In this document: positions 6,386 through 13,804 of the stretch, one piece after another
Layout of the letters: each line of letters starts with the position of its first letter
Position numbering within the stretch: the stretch's first letter is position 1
From: Acidimicrobiia bacterium
GTDB taxonomy: Bacteria; Actinomycetota; Acidimicrobiia; Acidimicrobiales; UBA8592
Length of the DNA: 43,866 bases
Direction: 5' to 3'
Assembly: GCA_030431575.1 (NCBI GenBank)
Contig: JAUIIS010000006.1
Span: 1-43,866, forward strand
Made by a program: the position numbers and the translations under genes
Notes under the pieces: model-generated
The model's database searches: none
What the model saw: the letters and a program-made list of their open reading frames with translations, nothing else
What the model was told of the DNA's origin: nothing

Positions 6386-7885
6386 CTAGCGAGAACTCTG
6401 GTCGCTAGCGCGGCCGTACTCGGCAATCCGGTCGAGCACGGCATCGATATCTGCGGTAGTCACTGCCGGGTTCATGTAGAGGAGCCGAAAGCTGTTGAGG
6501 CCGTGGACGGGCTGGAAGCCCACCATTGCGGTGCCCTCGGCCTGCATGCGCGCTTTGATCTTTGGGGGCAGCGCGTGCAGCCTGGTGTGCGTCGCAGGTT
6601 CTAAACCTGGGACCCCTTCGGCAGGCCAGGGGCGAAGCTCGCTGGGCACCCATGCAAAGACCACGTTGGTGAAGTCGCCCGGGACAATGGCTGCGAACTC
6701 GCCACCCGATGCCGCAATGCAGCCACGGGTGTAGTCGGCCATCTCGACGGCGTGGTCTACGCGGGATGCATTGCCTTGGTCGCCGTGGTACTTCCAGCTG
6801 AGCCATAGCTTGAGGACGTCGATGCGGCGGGCGCATTGAAAGGTGCGGTCGCCCGAGTCGTAGTCGGCGTAGAGCTTGTCGGGTTGGAAGAGATAGTCGG
6901 CCTGGCCCGCAAAGCATGCGGCGAGTTGAGTTGGATCCTTGACCAGCAGGGCTGTGCACTGTTGGGTCATGCCCATCATCTTGTGCAGGTTCCAAACAAA
7001 GGAATCGGAGCGTTCGACCCCGGCAAGAAGATGGCGGTGCTTGGGTGAGAACAATGCAGATCCGCCGTAGCAGCCATCGACGTGGAGCCAAAGCCCGTGT
7101 TCTTGGCAGATGTCGGCGACGGCGTTGATGTCGTCGAATGCGCTGGTGACGGTTGTTCCTGCTGTGGCGATTACGGCGAACGGGACTTTTCCTGCTTGGG
7201 CCGACCGGGCTACGGCTTCGCGGAGGGCGGCTGGCTCGATGGCGCCATTGTTGTCCGATGCCACCTTCACCACTGCGTTGGTGCCAAGGCCGAGAAGGGC
7301 CGCCGACTTGGTTGCTGCGTAGTGCCCAGCGTCGGACACAAACAAGGTGAGTCGGTCGGCGGAGGCTCCTGTGGTCACGATGTCGGGTTGGCGGCGATGC
7401 CGGGCGAGTTGGAGGGCGTAGAGCGTTGCGGTTGATCCACCTGGACAGAAGAGTCCGGGCGGGAGCGTTGGCAGCTGGTCGGCGGCGGGCTCGAGGTAGC
7501 CGGCGAGTCGGCCCAGCTTGGAGAGGGTTGCGCTTTCCATGAGGGTGAAGACGGGCGCCGCTTCATACGTTGCGCCGGTTGTGTTGAGTGCGGCTCCAAG
7601 CCAATCACCGACCACCGAAATGGGGTCTGGCCCGGCAAAGTTCTGATTGAGAAAGCGCGGGTGGCTGGTGTGTATGGAATGTTTGACCACGAGGTCGACT
7701 GCGGCCATGAGCGCTTGATTGTCGGCGGCGGCAACGTCGTTTTCGAGACCAAGCGCGGTGGCAGTTTGGAACGCAGCGACGAGTTGATCGGGGCTTGCGT
7801 AACGGACGACGTCGTTTGGCGCGCTGGGTGGGTTTAGCACATAAGCCAGGGCCCGCTTCGCGACTTCTTCTTCTAACCGTGACAT
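6386..7885 (-). CDS. PLP-dependent group II amino acid decarboxylase (glutamate / cysteine-sulfinate type)
   Basis: This is a pyridoxal-phosphate enzyme of 499 residues, the size of group II decarboxylases. The key residues are H189 (SDAGHYA, ring stacking), D270 (HVDGCYGG, pyridine nitrogen) and K302 in WNLHKMMGMTQQC (Schiff base). The lysine motif closely resembles that of the animal GAD65/cysteine-sulfinate decarboxylase branch (NPHKMMG-x5-C), so a substrate such as glutamate, cysteine sulfinate or aspartate is more likely than an aromatic amino acid; that is inference. The frame is open to 8002, but the extra 39 residues would be encoded by the 7921-8062 repeat, so I start at the 7885 ATG. 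Confidence 0.88.
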   Translation of the reverse strand: MSRLEEEVAKRALAYVLNPPSAPNDVVRYASPDQLVAAFQTATALGLENDVAAADNQALMAAVDLVVKHSIHTSHPRFLNQNFAGPDPISVVGDWLGAALNTTGATYEAAPVFTLMESATLSKLGRLAGYLEPAADQLPTLPPGLFCPGGSTATLYALQLARHRRQPDIVTTGASADRLTLFVSDAGHYAATKSAALLGLGTNAVVKVASDNNGAIEPAALREAVARSAQAGKVPFAVIATAGTTVTSAFDDINAVADICQEHGLWLHVDGCYGGSALFSPKHRHLLAGVERSDSFVWNLHKMMGMTQQCTALLVKDPTQLAACFAGQADYLFQPDKLYADYDSGDRTFQCARRIDVLKLWLSWKYHGDQGNASRVDHAVEMADYTRGCIAASGGEFAAIVPGDFTNVVFAWVPSELRPWPAEGVPGLEPATHTRLHALPPKIKARMQAEGTAMVGFQPVHGLNSFRLLYMNPAVTTADIDAVLDRIAEYGRASDQSSR

Positions 7886-7920
7886 AGCTGCGGACGCCTT
7901 TGTTGTGTGCGACCGAGAGC

Positions 7921-8062
7921 TTAGGGGCCTGGCGGATGAGTAAGCGAAGCTGGCTGAGACACCAGGACCCGGGGACCCAAGCGGCCCGGCCCGCAGGGCC
8001 AAGAGCGGACAACAAGCGTAAGGACCTGTGCGGTGACCATGGCCGATCCGCGCAGGTCCTTA
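7921..8062. repeat. Dispersed inverted-repeat-ended element, copy 2 (142 bp)
   Basis: This is copy 2 of the element at 274-412, in the same orientation. The 29-bp identical core is at 7980-8008. The terminal inverted repeat is TTAGGGGCCTGGCGGAT at the left and ATCCGCGCAGGTCCTTA at the right, and TAAGGACCTGTGCGGTGAC (about 8019-8037) can form the competing inner hairpin. The right end gives the TAA stop (8062-8060) of the minus-strand winged-helix gene, exactly as copy 1 gives the stop of the dioxygenase. The element lies between two minus-strand genes and so could also act as a terminator of the regulator or a leader of the decarboxylase. Confidence 0.8.
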
Positions 8063-8457: not shown

Positions 8458-11400
8458 ATGTTGTTGCTTGTGGGAATCCTGAGCCACCTCGTTGGTGGCG
8501 TCATCGCGCTGACTCAGAGGGGCCCCCTCCGCGCTGGCCGCGCCCTCACCATTGGAGGCGCCGCGTCGACGGCCGCAGCGGTGTGGCTTCTTGTCCTCAG
8601 CGCCGCGGATAGCGGCGGCGTTGCCGCAACGCTCGACACCTTCGACATGACTCTCGGTCGCGTCGGGGCGCTTCTTCTCGTGGTGATCACCGCCACCGCC
8701 ACCGTCGTGGCTGCGTTCTCTGCGAGAAGCCTGGACAACGACGGCCGCGCCCCCCAGTACTTCTTCCTTATCGGCGTAGTAGCAACGGGATCGGCCCTGG
8801 TAGTCGTGCCCGCAACGCCGGTATTGCTAATCGTCGGATGGTTGGTGTCGGGCTGGGCCCTTGTTGGGCTTGTCGGCTTCGAACGGGCGCTAAAGGCAAC
8901 CAAGCGCGCCCAACGCCGAATCCTGACCACTCTTGCCATCGGCGACGCTGCCCTGATTGGTGCCGTCATTGCGGCCACAGCAACCAGCGATGGACTGTTC
9001 ACCGGCAATGCCACAAACGCTGTGGCCGAGCTTGAGGATTCGACCGTTGCTGGCGTCGCCTGGCTGCACGTCGTTGCCCTTCTCGTCGTAGTGGCCGGAG
9101 CCTCTCGCTCGGCGCTTGTCCCATTCCATCGCTGGCTGATCGGCACCCTTGCTGCACCAACGCCAGTATCGGCGTTGGTGCACGCCGGCTTAGTCAGTGG
9201 GGCTGGCCTGCTACTTCTCCGATTTGCCCCGGCGTTCGTTGCCTCTGAGGCAGCGGTCATCTTGGCATTCGTCCTGGGCGTCATCACCGTGATAGTCGCT
9301 TCGTCGGCTTCGATCTTGCGCTCAGACATCAAAGGAAGCTTGGCCTGGTCGACCGTGGCCCAGATGGCGTTCATGGTGGTGCAGTGTGCGGTTGGTGCCT
9401 TTAGCAGTGCGGTGTTCCATATCGCAGGCCATGGCATGTACAAGGCAACGCTGTTCCTTGGCTCTGGCGATACCGCCGCTGGCGGTCTGCGTGCCAAACG
9501 GCGTGCCATCGGCCACCCCGCGCCAACCCCTGCCACCCGGCTCGCGTTGTCAGCCCTAGCGGCAACAGCGTCGGTGGCGCTGGCCATCTGGCTCATCCCA
9601 CCAGAAGTATCCGACGCCGGCCGCGTCCTGGTCGTGGTGTTTGCGTGGCTGAGCATCGCCTTTGGCATATCCGGCTGGCTTCAGCGCGGCCCCTTGCCAT
9701 TCGCCGCCTCAGCGATCACCTCGGTTGTCCTCGCTTTGGCAGGCGCCTTCGCCTACGTGGGCAGCCTTCGGCTCGTCGAAGAGTTCCTCAAGCCATCCTT
9801 TGCAGGACTCTCCTTGGACACCGTCGTTGGTGCCACCGAACTGATCATCGTCCTCGCCGTGCTTGCGGCCGCGTTGCTGGGTTCAGCGCTCATCGGGACA
9901 GCACCGCAGCAAACCCTCAAGCAAGCTTGGATTCGTACCACCGTGGCCCTTACCAGCACTGCGGCACCCCCGGTGCACGCCACGACCACTTCCCCGCCCA
10001 CAACAACGGCACCCGGAGCCAAAACGCCAGCGACCTCGGGTACTCGCCGCGCAGAAATCAGAGCAGAAGTCGCTCGCGCCAGCCGGATCGTGGCGCCGCA
10101 GTGGCCGCTGGCATCGTTCGTCGCCGTTAACCCGCTTGGCGGCTTGGAGTCCATGGGCTTTGAGGAAGCTGCGGCGGTGGCACGCAAGTGGCTGGGCGCC
10201 AAGACACACCTCAGCCTCGACGAGTTCCGCAAAGACCACCGGGCTGGGTTAAGTCGGGCGGCCGACCTCGAGCACGTCGTCTACTACCACTTCACCGAAC
10301 TGTGCGAGCAGCCAGCGCTAATGATCGACGGCCACACCGTCTCGCCGGTCGACATCATCGTTGCCGACCTTCTGCACGGCCCAGAAGCTCAGCCGACACC
10401 TCACGCTGGTACGACTTTGCAGCGTCATGGGCCCCTATCAGAACCTTTCACAGCATTGATCGACAGCGTCTTGGCGTCTTGGTTGGCCGCATTCGTGGAG
10501 CAGTCTCAAGTGGCGAAGGCATCGAAGGCCAAAACGTTCGTCGGGATGTGCCTGCGCCTCATGGCCGAGGATCCAAGGCTCAGCGCCATCACCAAGCGCA
10601 GCGATACGACATGGTTGGCCCCCCTTGCCAAACAACCTGCCGCGGTCATCGACATCTCCTTGCAGCGCTGCGGCGTCGTCGACGAGGATCGGCCCGACGA
10701 ACTGCGAGGCCACCTAAGCCAGCTTCCCGGCTGGACGGGTTTGGCCAAATGGCGGAACGAATGGGCACAGCCCGATGAGGGTCGACCCCCACTGGCACCC
10801 ATCGAGGTTGTGGCTGTTCGCGCTGCGCTCGAAGCCGTGGTCATTGGATCGGGTCTCGTTCCTCGCACTGCTCCCACGGACCAGGCTGCCACCGATGGTG
10901 AAGTACTGGACGCGCGGGTCGATGCCGTTGCTAAAGCTCTGGCGCCCACGGGGACACAGCTCGACCGTGACGCAATCTCGAGCGTGATTGCCAAGGTGCC
11001 TGCCGCCAGTCGTCCATCGTTGTGGCTTGCCGCCCAAGAACGCAACATGGACGAGCGGTTGCTCAGCATGATCGACCGGCTAGACCCTGGCCCCAGCGTC
11101 AACAAGCCCGACGCGCAACTCGTGTTCTGTATCGATGTTCGCTCCGAAGGGCTGCGGCGCCATCTCGAAGCAATCGGCAACGTAGAGACCATTGGTTTCG
11201 CAGGCTTCTTTGGTGTGCCGATGCGCATCCGGCGTGTCGGTTGGGAGCACACCGAAGCCCGCTGCCCGGTGTTGGTTTCGCCAGCAATCGAAGCAACAGA
11301 ACACCCTCGACCCCAGACCATTGACTCGGTAGCCAAACGGCTGACCCAAGAGCGGGTGCTTGCCAGCGTCCAGAGCGCTCATAAAGCCGCGAAGTACGGA

Positions 11401-12573
11401 GCGGGCGCTCCGTTTGCCCTGGCCGAAACGGCAGGTTGGTTGGCGGGCCCAACTGCGGCCTTGAAGACGCTGGTTCCCCCGAAGGCCTCACCCCCGAGTG
11501 CGCCAGCGACCAGAATGGTCCTCGACGACGATGAGGTGTTGTTGGAGCAGCGGGTGTTCTTTGCCGAAGCGGTCTTGAACACCATGGGGCTGACCAAGAA
11601 CTTCGCTGCCCTCGTGATGCTGTGTGGTCACACCAGCAATACCGTCAACAACCCACACGCGACAGCCTTGGAATGCGGCGCTTGTGCAGGCGCGTCCGGC
11701 GACGACAACGCCCGGGCGGTGGCAGCCTTGCTGAACTCCCCCGATGTGCGCCACGGCCTTGTGGGCCGGGGCATCACCATCCCGGACGAGACATGGTTTG
11801 TTGCTGGGCTTCACGACACCGCCAGCGATCACGTTGCCCTTCTCGACACTGTCGATGCGCCCGCAGAGTTTCAACCCAACATCACCGACCTTGCGTCCTT
11901 GCTGGCCGAGGCCAGCGCCCGGAACTCCCACGACCGTTCGACCCATCTACCCGGACCAAGCACCAAGGTGCGCGACCGGGGAAGCGACTGGGCCCAAGTT
12001 CGGCCCGAGTGGGGCCTGGCCCGCAACGCCGCCTTTGTGATTGGCCCGCGCTCAGTGACCGCCGACCTCGACCTCGAAGGCCGGTGCTTCCTGCACACCT
12101 ACAACGCCGAAGACGACCCAACGGGCCGAGTGCTCGAGACCATCATGACTGCGCCGCTGGTCGTGGGACATTGGATCAGCTCGCAGTACTACTTCTCAAC
12201 TGTCGATCCCGAAGTCTTCGGGGCGGGCAACAAACTGCTCCACAACCCGTTGGGCACAACCGGCGTCGTCACCGGCGATGGCGGGGATCTGCGGGTGGGG
12301 CTCCCCTTACAAAGCACCCATGTCGACGGACAACGTTTCCACCAGCCCGTTCGGCTGCTGGCCGTCATCCAGGCCGACCTGGAACGCATCGAGAGTATTG
12401 TCGCGGCCAACCCAGTCCTTCAGGCCCTGACCGAGGGTTCGTGGCTGCGGCTGGCTGCCCGGTCACATCCTCATGAACGCTGGTCTACCCGCACCCCGAA
12501 GGGGACCTGGGTTGCCAGCCCCCGACCACTTGACCCGCAGCCAACCCTTACCCCGAACACGGAGATGACATGA
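8458..12573 (+). CDS. dabBA: Fused DabB-DabA inorganic carbon uptake protein
   Basis: This single 1371-residue chain has two parts. Residues about 1-500 form a multi-helix membrane domain of the NuoL/MrpA proton-channel family (DabB), with FHRWLIGTLAAPTPVSALVH near 222-241 and HIAGHGMYKATLFLGSG near 320-336. After a Thr/Pro-rich linker (about 500-528), residues 530-1371 form a DUF2309 domain (DabA). The DabA zinc and active-site residues are all present: C891 and D893 in VFCIDVRSE, H1058 in LCGHTSN, and C1073 in LECGACAG. In known DAB systems the two subunits are separate and use a cation gradient to drive one-way hydration of CO2 to bicarbonate. Here they are one gene, followed with ATGA overlap by a PII-like gene. 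No Rubisco or carboxysome gene is in the window, so bicarbonate for anaplerotic carboxylation is a plausible use. Confidence 0.9.
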   Translation: MLLLVGILSHLVGGVIALTQRGPLRAGRALTIGGAASTAAAVWLLVLSAADSGGVAATLDTFDMTLGRVGALLLVVITATATVVAAFSARSLDNDGRAPQYFFLIGVVATGSALVVVPATPVLLIVGWLVSGWALVGLVGFERALKATKRAQRRILTTLAIGDAALIGAVIAATATSDGLFTGNATNAVAELEDSTVAGVAWLHVVALLVVVAGASRSALVPFHRWLIGTLAAPTPVSALVHAGLVSGAGLLLLRFAPAFVASEAAVILAFVLGVITVIVASSASILRSDIKGSLAWSTVAQMAFMVVQCAVGAFSSAVFHIAGHGMYKATLFLGSGDTAAGGLRAKRRAIGHPAPTPATRLALSALAATASVALAIWLIPPEVSDAGRVLVVVFAWLSIAFGISGWLQRGPLPFAASAITSVVLALAGAFAYVGSLRLVEEFLKPSFAGLSLDTVVGATELIIVLAVLAAALLGSALIGTAPQQTLKQAWIRTTVALTSTAAPPVHATTTSPPTTTAPGAKTPATSGTRRAEIRAEVARASRIVAPQWPLASFVAVNPLGGLESMGFEEAAAVARKWLGAKTHLSLDEFRKDHRAGLSRAADLEHVVYYHFTELCEQPALMIDGHTVSPVDIIVADLLHGPEAQPTPHAGTTLQRHGPLSEPFTALIDSVLASWLAAFVEQSQVAKASKAKTFVGMCLRLMAEDPRLSAITKRSDTTWLAPLAKQPAAVIDISLQRCGVVDEDRPDELRGHLSQLPGWTGLAKWRNEWAQPDEGRPPLAPIEVVAVRAALEAVVIGSGLVPRTAPTDQAATDGEVLDARVDAVAKALAPTGTQLDRDAISSVIAKVPAASRPSLWLAAQERNMDERLLSMIDRLDPGPSVNKPDAQLVFCIDVRSEGLRRHLEAIGNVETIGFAGFFGVPMRIRRVGWEHTEARCPVLVSPAIEATEHPRPQTIDSVAKRLTQERVLASVQSAHKAAKYGAGAPFALAETAGWLAGPTAALKTLVPPKASPPSAPATRMVLDDDEVLLEQRVFFAEAVLNTMGLTKNFAALVMLCGHTSNTVNNPHATALECGACAGASGDDNARAVAALLNSPDVRHGLVGRGITIPDETWFVAGLHDTASDHVALLDTVDAPAEFQPNITDLASLLAEASARNSHDRSTHLPGPSTKVRDRGSDWAQVRPEWGLARNAAFVIGPRSVTADLDLEGRCFLHTYNAEDDPTGRVLETIMTAPLVVGHWISSQYYFSTVDPEVFGAGNKLLHNPLGTTGVVTGDGGDLRVGLPLQSTHVDGQRFHQPVRLLAVIQADLERIESIVAANPVLQALTEGSWLRLAARSHPHERWSTRTPKGTWVASPRPLDPQPTLTPNTEMT

Positions 12574-12914
12574 CCACCTGGCCCGGACTTACCCCAATGG
12601 CACGCATAGAAGTCGTCATCGACGGCGAGCACGTGCCCACCATTCGAGACCTGTTTCTCAGCTCTGGAGCGACGGGATACACCGCGCTCCACGGCGTGTC
12701 GGGTTTCGGACACGGTGGCCAGCACGAAGGGCGACTCCTGTTTAATGACAGAAACAGCCTGTCGCTACTGATCAGCATTATCCCTATCGAAATCGCAGAG
12801 CCGCTCATCGCTGGCGTACGCAAAGTCCTCGAAGGACAAGCTGGTGTGATGTTTGTGTCCGAGACTCACGTGAGCCGCCCCGAGTACTTCCGCCCCGGAG
12901 ACACAGACGAATAG
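12570..12914 (+). CDS. PII-like (CutA/PII-fold) regulatory protein of the Dab locus
   Basis: This 114-residue protein has the ferredoxin-like PII pattern: strand ARIEVVIDGEHV, helix TIRDLFLSSGATGYT, a T-loop-like Gly/His segment GVSGFGHGGQHEGRL, and strands around SLLISIIPIEIAEPLIAGVR and VMFVSETHVS. PII-like proteins are repeatedly found next to bicarbonate transporters (for example SbtB) and DAB genes, where they sense nucleotides or bicarbonate and gate the transporter; I infer the same role here. The ATG at 12570 overlaps the dabBA stop (ATGA). A second in-frame ATG at 12597 is an alternative start nearer the first strand. Confidence 0.8.
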   Translation: MTTWPGLTPMARIEVVIDGEHVPTIRDLFLSSGATGYTALHGVSGFGHGGQHEGRLLFNDRNSLSLLISIIPIEIAEPLIAGVRKVLEGQAGVMFVSETHVSRPEYFRPGDTDE

Positions 12915-12952
12915 ACGGCAAACGAGTCTGGGTGTCCGTTCGGGCACGCACC

Positions 12953-12958
12953 TACCCT
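12953..12958 (+). promoter_or_regulatory. Candidate leaderless -10 box for the ATP-grasp gene
   Basis: TACCCT is followed by 6 nt and then the ATG at 12965. It overlaps an 8-bp palindrome CCCTAGGG (12955-12962). The spacing fits a leaderless transcript. If real, the ATP-grasp gene has its own promoter in addition to read-through from the dab operon. Confidence 0.4.
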
Positions 12959-12964
12959 AGGGAC

Positions 12965-13804
12965 ATGCCCAAGCTCCATTTCGTTACCGACGGCGGGCCG
13001 CCCGCAACGCGAGAGTTGTTTCGCTCGGCTTGCCTAGCCCGTGATCTCGAGTTCGTGACGCATCGTGCCCGTAGCTACGAGTTCTTGGGGGAATCGGTCG
13101 AGCGCCCGGGGGAAGTCTTCTACCAAGCCGGGGTAAGCGGGTTGGCATCTGCTGTGGCCCGAGAGCTGGCGGGTCAGGGAGCGACCGGGCTTCGCGATGG
13201 GCGTTTGGCCGGAGGCCCCGCTGCGAGCGTGCACCAGATGCAGCAGGCAGGTGTTCCCGTCCTCGCATGCTCGCTCTGCAGCGGCCACAACCGCGGTGCG
13301 GTCAACCGAACGGTAGAACGCCTTGGCGGCCTACCCGTTGTGGTGAAGGTCCCAGGAGGCGAGGGCGGCATCGGCGTCATGCTGGCCGAGACGAAGCCAG
13401 CTCTGTTTGGTCTCATCGACTACCTAACTGCCGCCGGCGTAGTTCCGTTGCTGTCCGCGTTTGTGCCCGACGCCATCCACTGGCGTTGCATTGTTCTGGG
13501 CGAACGCGTGTTGTTGTCATATCGCAACGAGATGGTCCCGGACGACTTTCGTACCCATGCACCCACCACCGCTGCGGGCTACGTCGAAGATGCGCCCGAG
13601 GATGTCTCCGTTGCGGCCGTGCGCGCTGTCATCAGCCTTGGCTTGGATTTCGGGGGTGTCGACGTGCTGGTTGGTAAAACCGGCGACATGCACGTTCTGG
13701 AGGTCAACTCGCCGTGCAACTTCGCTGAGGCGCAACAGTTGGCTGGCGTGGATGTCGCCGGCGCAGTGGTTGACCAACTTGTTGCCCGCGTGACGCAGCG
13801 TTAG
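12965..13804 (+). CDS. ATP-grasp ligase-like protein (RimK type)
   Basis: This 279-residue protein carries the ATP-grasp fold. Residues 123-140 hold the lysine and glycine loop of the nucleotide site (VVVKVPGGEGGIG, K128), followed by a metal-binding strand and the C-terminal motif LEVNSPCNF with the Glu and Asn that bind Mg. ATP-grasp enzymes join a carboxylate to an amine, thiol or hydroxyl through an acyl phosphate; RimK-like members modify peptides or proteins. It lies 50 bp after the PII-like gene on the same strand. Its stop overlaps, tail to tail, the stop of an 89-residue peptide gene, which may be its substrate or merely a neighbour. The ATG at 12965 is preferred because it gives the family N-terminal strand. 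Confidence 0.8.
   Translation: MPKLHFVTDGGPPATRELFRSACLARDLEFVTHRARSYEFLGESVERPGEVFYQAGVSGLASAVARELAGQGATGLRDGRLAGGPAASVHQMQQAGVPVLACSLCSGHNRGAVNRTVERLGGLPVVVKVPGGEGGIGVMLAETKPALFGLIDYLTAAGVVPLLSAFVPDAIHWRCIVLGERVLLSYRNEMVPDDFRTHAPTTAAGYVEDAPEDVSVAAVRAVISLGLDFGGVDVLVGKTGDMHVLEVNSPCNFAEAQQLAGVDVAGAVVDQLVARVTQR

Follow-up and report, generated by a model that had tools for sequence, protein, structure and literature searches.

The locus examined here raises the question of whether one long reading frame in an Acidimicrobiia genome encodes an authentic single-chain DAC, and, if it does, how the fusion arose and what purpose its bicarbonate would serve. In the 43,866-bp stretch of DNA that was analysed (the window), the frame at 8458–12573 runs uninterrupted from an ATG start over 1371 aa with zero internal stops. 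The sequence-only reading had recognized in it a NuoL-like membrane domain and a complete DUF2309 domain, and the Pfam searches agreed: PF00361 matched residues 123–339 (E 9e-27), while PF10070 (DabA) matched residues 538–1330 (E 1e-216), covering positions 1–747 of the 747-position model. The top PDB matches were DabB2 (9rd0_B, E 8e-32) for the first half and DabA2 of the same Halothiobacillus DAB2 complex, 9rd0 (E 1.5e-109), for the second. DabB and DabA thus lie in one frame with DabB first, which is the single-subunit DAC architecture. The Thr/Pro-rich stretch of about 30 residues already described between the domains proved to sit inside a linker of about residues 481–532. The features of the region are the following.

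6386–8002, minus strand: pyridoxal-dependent decarboxylase gene, divergent from dabBA
8458–12573, plus strand: whole dabBA fusion gene, 1371-aa open frame
8458–9897, plus strand: DabB (NuoL/MrpA-like, PF00361) half, residues 1–480, by Pfam and DabB2 match
9898–10053, plus strand: Thr/Pro/Ala-rich linker, about residues 481–532, 27% identical to the linker of the fused orthologue L002
10054–12570, plus strand: DabA (PF10070/DUF2309) half, residues 533–1371, by Pfam and DabA2 match
12570–12914, plus strand: CPII-like P-II protein gene, 114 aa, PF00543, ATGA overlap with the dabBA stop
12932–13804, plus strand: RimK-like ATP-grasp gene, 17 bases after the P-II gene

The approximately 455 bases between the decarboxylase gene and dabBA are predicted to hold the dabBA promoter.

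Catalytic site and proton path

In the HMMER alignment, the window protein was identical to DabA2 at all 11 positions checked: C351, D353, R355, S356, A376, and E444 correspond to C891, D893, R895, S896, A915, and E990, and H524, C539, H585, D590, and L658 to H1058, C1073, H1119, D1124, and L1187. The active-site set C891, D893, H1058, and C1073, previously picked out from the sequence, therefore coincides with DabA2 C351, D353, H524, and C539. The ligands of the Cys2His zinc site (C891, H1058, C1073) are present, D893 and R895 form the Asp–Arg dyad, and the protein also has the finger glutamate (E990, DabA2 E444) and L1187 (DabA2 Leu658) in place of the canonical Gln/His. The proton path of DabB2 was likewise retained, S256, H260, K310, S316, H339, H343, and K347 being identical in the window at S238, H242, K292, S298, H321, H325, and K329 (7/7). 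DabB2 D185 is also kept, I151 is replaced by L, and two ion-pair positions differ, K235 conservatively (R217) and R182 by A160 in the alignment used. Mutation of the catalytic, finger, and proton-path residues of DAB2 abolished or reduced its function (PMC13144422). The window protein shares its zinc ligands, Asp–Arg dyad, finger Glu, Leu658, and proton-path residues with DAB2 (DabB2–DabA2) of Halothiobacillus neapolitanus, of which the cryo-EM construct 9rd0 is an artificial fusion with the same subunit order; natural DAB2, in contrast, is encoded by two genes and supports Rubisco-based carbon fixation. The earlier suggestion that the enzyme is active is strengthened by the intact site, and activity is predicted; unlike the frame, domains, and residues, which can be read directly, the activity and the coupling ion are what we infer.

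Considering these residues, we regard it as highly probable that the window protein is a one-chain DAC acting as a proton-motive-force-driven one-way carbonic anhydrase, with a proposed tuning by P-II and delivery of bicarbonate to PEP carboxylase and biotin carboxylases. Protons would enter via the DabB half and pass to the finger helices of DabA (E990), and this flow would open the buried zinc site, where cytoplasmic CO2 would be hydrated to bicarbonate with the back-reaction prevented. The linker would merely tether the two subunits, the co-translated CPII-like protein would probably tune the complex by the bicarbonate/adenylate state, and the product would probably go not to Rubisco but to PEP carboxylase and biotin carboxylases.

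An MpsAB homologue has been argued to be sodium-coupled, so the fused chain might instead be a Na+/HCO3− symporter of this kind. The chain retains every zinc-site, dyad, and finger residue of DAB2 together with the DAB2 proton path, which argues against a symporter; since MpsAB relatives may keep the same residues, this discriminates weakly, and the coupling ion and direction lie beyond what sequence can tell. All things considered, a symporter appears unlikely.

The linker and the integrity of the frame

The linker evolves fast and contains a few in-frame GTG codons, including those at residues 496 and 506, which would be compatible with a chain that is made as one and then cut, or with an additional internal start of DabA, either of which would yield separate DabB and DabA. 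However, neither ATG codons nor a clear Shine–Dalgarno sequence before the GTG codons were found in the linker. The 2026 DAB2 cryo-EM paper moreover reported that growth yield did not change significantly when DabB2 and DabA2 were fused by engineering, while the two-subunit complex dissociated in sample preparation (PMC13144422); as a direct fusion works, neither cutting nor an internal start is needed, and we consider separate products very unlikely.

An assembly or sequencing artefact that joined two genes, conceivable given that the source genome is a draft in 518 contigs and that dabB and dabA overlap in unfused relatives, was rejected as having next to no probability, because L002, an uncultured Acidimicrobiaceae MAG from a separate assembly recovered in the GTDB genome scan, has the same uninterrupted fused frame at 61–66% identity and the same downstream P-II overlap. 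A missed frameshift or stop near the linker, which the sequence-only reading had named as fatal to the fusion, was looked for via this related genome; the frame of L002 is intact, which rules out an overlooked frameshift in the window, and the fusion stands. Identity between the two proteins was 69% for residues 61–340 and 76% for residues 861–1340, whereas the linkers (481–532) share only 27%. Nucleotide differences amounted to 0.59 and 0.55 at third codon positions in the two halves but to 0.26 and 0.18 at second positions, and this concentration at third positions indicates that both halves are under coding constraint. The linker drifts yet stays open, while both halves keep this constraint.

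Separate origins of the fusions

In the surveys, 60 relatives, 395 genomes from the class, and 396 from the phylum Actinomycetota were examined. Among the Actinomycetota dab loci read, dabB and dabA occupied different frames in 39 and were fused in only three: the window, L002, and G050 (L016), presumably the Acidimicrobium ferrooxidans genome, where DabB and DabA share a 1409-aa frame. Frames of 1117–1575 aa in seven further genomes (G002, G370, G395, G028, G301, G136, and G024) were rejected as fusions, as their dabB lies in another frame; they are long because the DNA upstream of dabA is open.

In the DabA tree (42 rows), the window and L002 grouped with the two-gene loci L105, L017, L109, L080, L020, and L023 (support 99), and the A. 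ferrooxidans fusion with other two-gene loci, L018, L081, and L082 (support 99). Forcing the three fused rows into one clade cost 374 log-likelihood units (AU p = 3e-67), and the DabB tree concurred, two changes being needed. Common descent of the window and A. ferrooxidans fusions was therefore rejected: the architecture is the same, the event is not. Because the fused rows fall into different clades, fusion happened at least twice in this taxonomic order. The A. ferrooxidans fusion resembles that of the window in its DabB–DabA order within one frame, its taxonomic order, and its catalytic motifs, but it is only about 33% identical and belongs to a different DabA/DabB clade, and a P-II gene was not found at its locus.

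The unfused relatives suggest how the genes became joined. In five of the six nearest, the end of dabB and the start of dabA overlap as ATGA or GTGA; in the sixth (L017), the dabB stop comes a few bases ahead of the dabA start. Most of the DabB proteins of the six end in a Ser/Thr/Pro/Arg-rich tail. The fusion would most likely have arisen by loss of the dabB stop; a small indel would join the genes and leave the tail as the linker. Two-gene Actinomycetota loci of the nearest unfused clade, such as G047, G002, G028, and that of the Mycolicibacterium aubagnense plasmid NZ_CP122998, show about 46% DabA identity to the window, the same B–A order, and the dabB stop at the dabA start; they differ from the window in keeping the two genes in separate frames.

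Other variants of the locus were also seen. A clade of other Actinomycetota (rows L099–L104, L106, L108, and L110–L112; genomes G783, G582, G497, G507, G634, G620, G714, G562, G679, G643, and G625) has an enlarged DabA of about 1300–1390 aa, over about 1200 residues of which the 747-position model is spread, and dabB, where seen, is downstream (order A then B). On the 23.7-kb Mycolicibacterium aubagnense plasmid NZ_CP122998, typed as mobilizable, dabB, dabA, a P-II-sized small regulator, and carbonic anhydrase follow in a row (L121, 3999–9010).

The novelty that the sequence-only reading had implied for the fusion did not hold, as a passage of the DAB2 paper, crediting Schmid 2021, mentions a natural single-subunit DAC in A. 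ferrooxidans, and the engineered DAB2 fusion is described there as well (PMC13144422). The fused architecture is thus already known in kind; what is new here is its separate origin and its link to a CPII-like P-II gene. Judged from these sequence comparisons, the window protein is a genuine and independently evolved single-chain DAC that is probably active.

The P-II gene and the use of bicarbonate

In the PDB, the P-II gene matched just two sequences, 5d4n and 5d4l (E 4e-19), which we take to be CPII. CPII is said to have been described by Wheatley in 2016 as a bicarbonate-regulated, carboxysome-associated P-II protein; the window P-II differs in this respect, as no RuBisCO was found in its 83%-complete genome. 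The P-II gene that overlaps dabBA in L002 is clearly homologous (phmmer 197 bits), and P-II genes of a similar kind also follow dabA in some two-gene loci (L105, L017, L107, L019, L087, L085, and L092), which makes the P-II link a feature of the family and not of the fusion. The RimK-like ATP-grasp gene was not found in L002 or in the other dab loci read.

The window had been noted to lack Rubisco, and this was extended to the organism's own genome, which is 83% complete: a RuBisCO large chain was not found in it, though one could sit in the missing 17%. The genome does encode a beta-carbonic anhydrase, PEP carboxylase, and five biotin-carboxylase C-domains, and taken together these results make ordinary carboxylases a likelier use of the bicarbonate than a CCM; most likely, they are what it serves. 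In contrast to the P-II overlap and the separate origin of the fusion, we infer this use and the control by P-II.

The conceptual gain is modest, since natural fusions were already known, and the interest lies mainly in a second fusion within one taxonomic order and in the CPII-like gene that overlaps dabBA. It is possible, and we suggest it only tentatively, that DabB–DabA fusion has been selected repeatedly as an adaptation in Acidimicrobiia, with at least two events in the same orientation, here combined with CPII-type P-II control and with bicarbonate supply to the ordinary carboxylases of a Rubisco-less organism. The overlapping P-II gene and dabBA form a testable regulator pair, and structure work or CO2-uptake engineering gains a DAC that is encoded by a single gene and may be more stable. 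As a second independent natural DabBA fusion, it indicates that function can be maintained over long evolutionary times with the two subunits covalently tethered.
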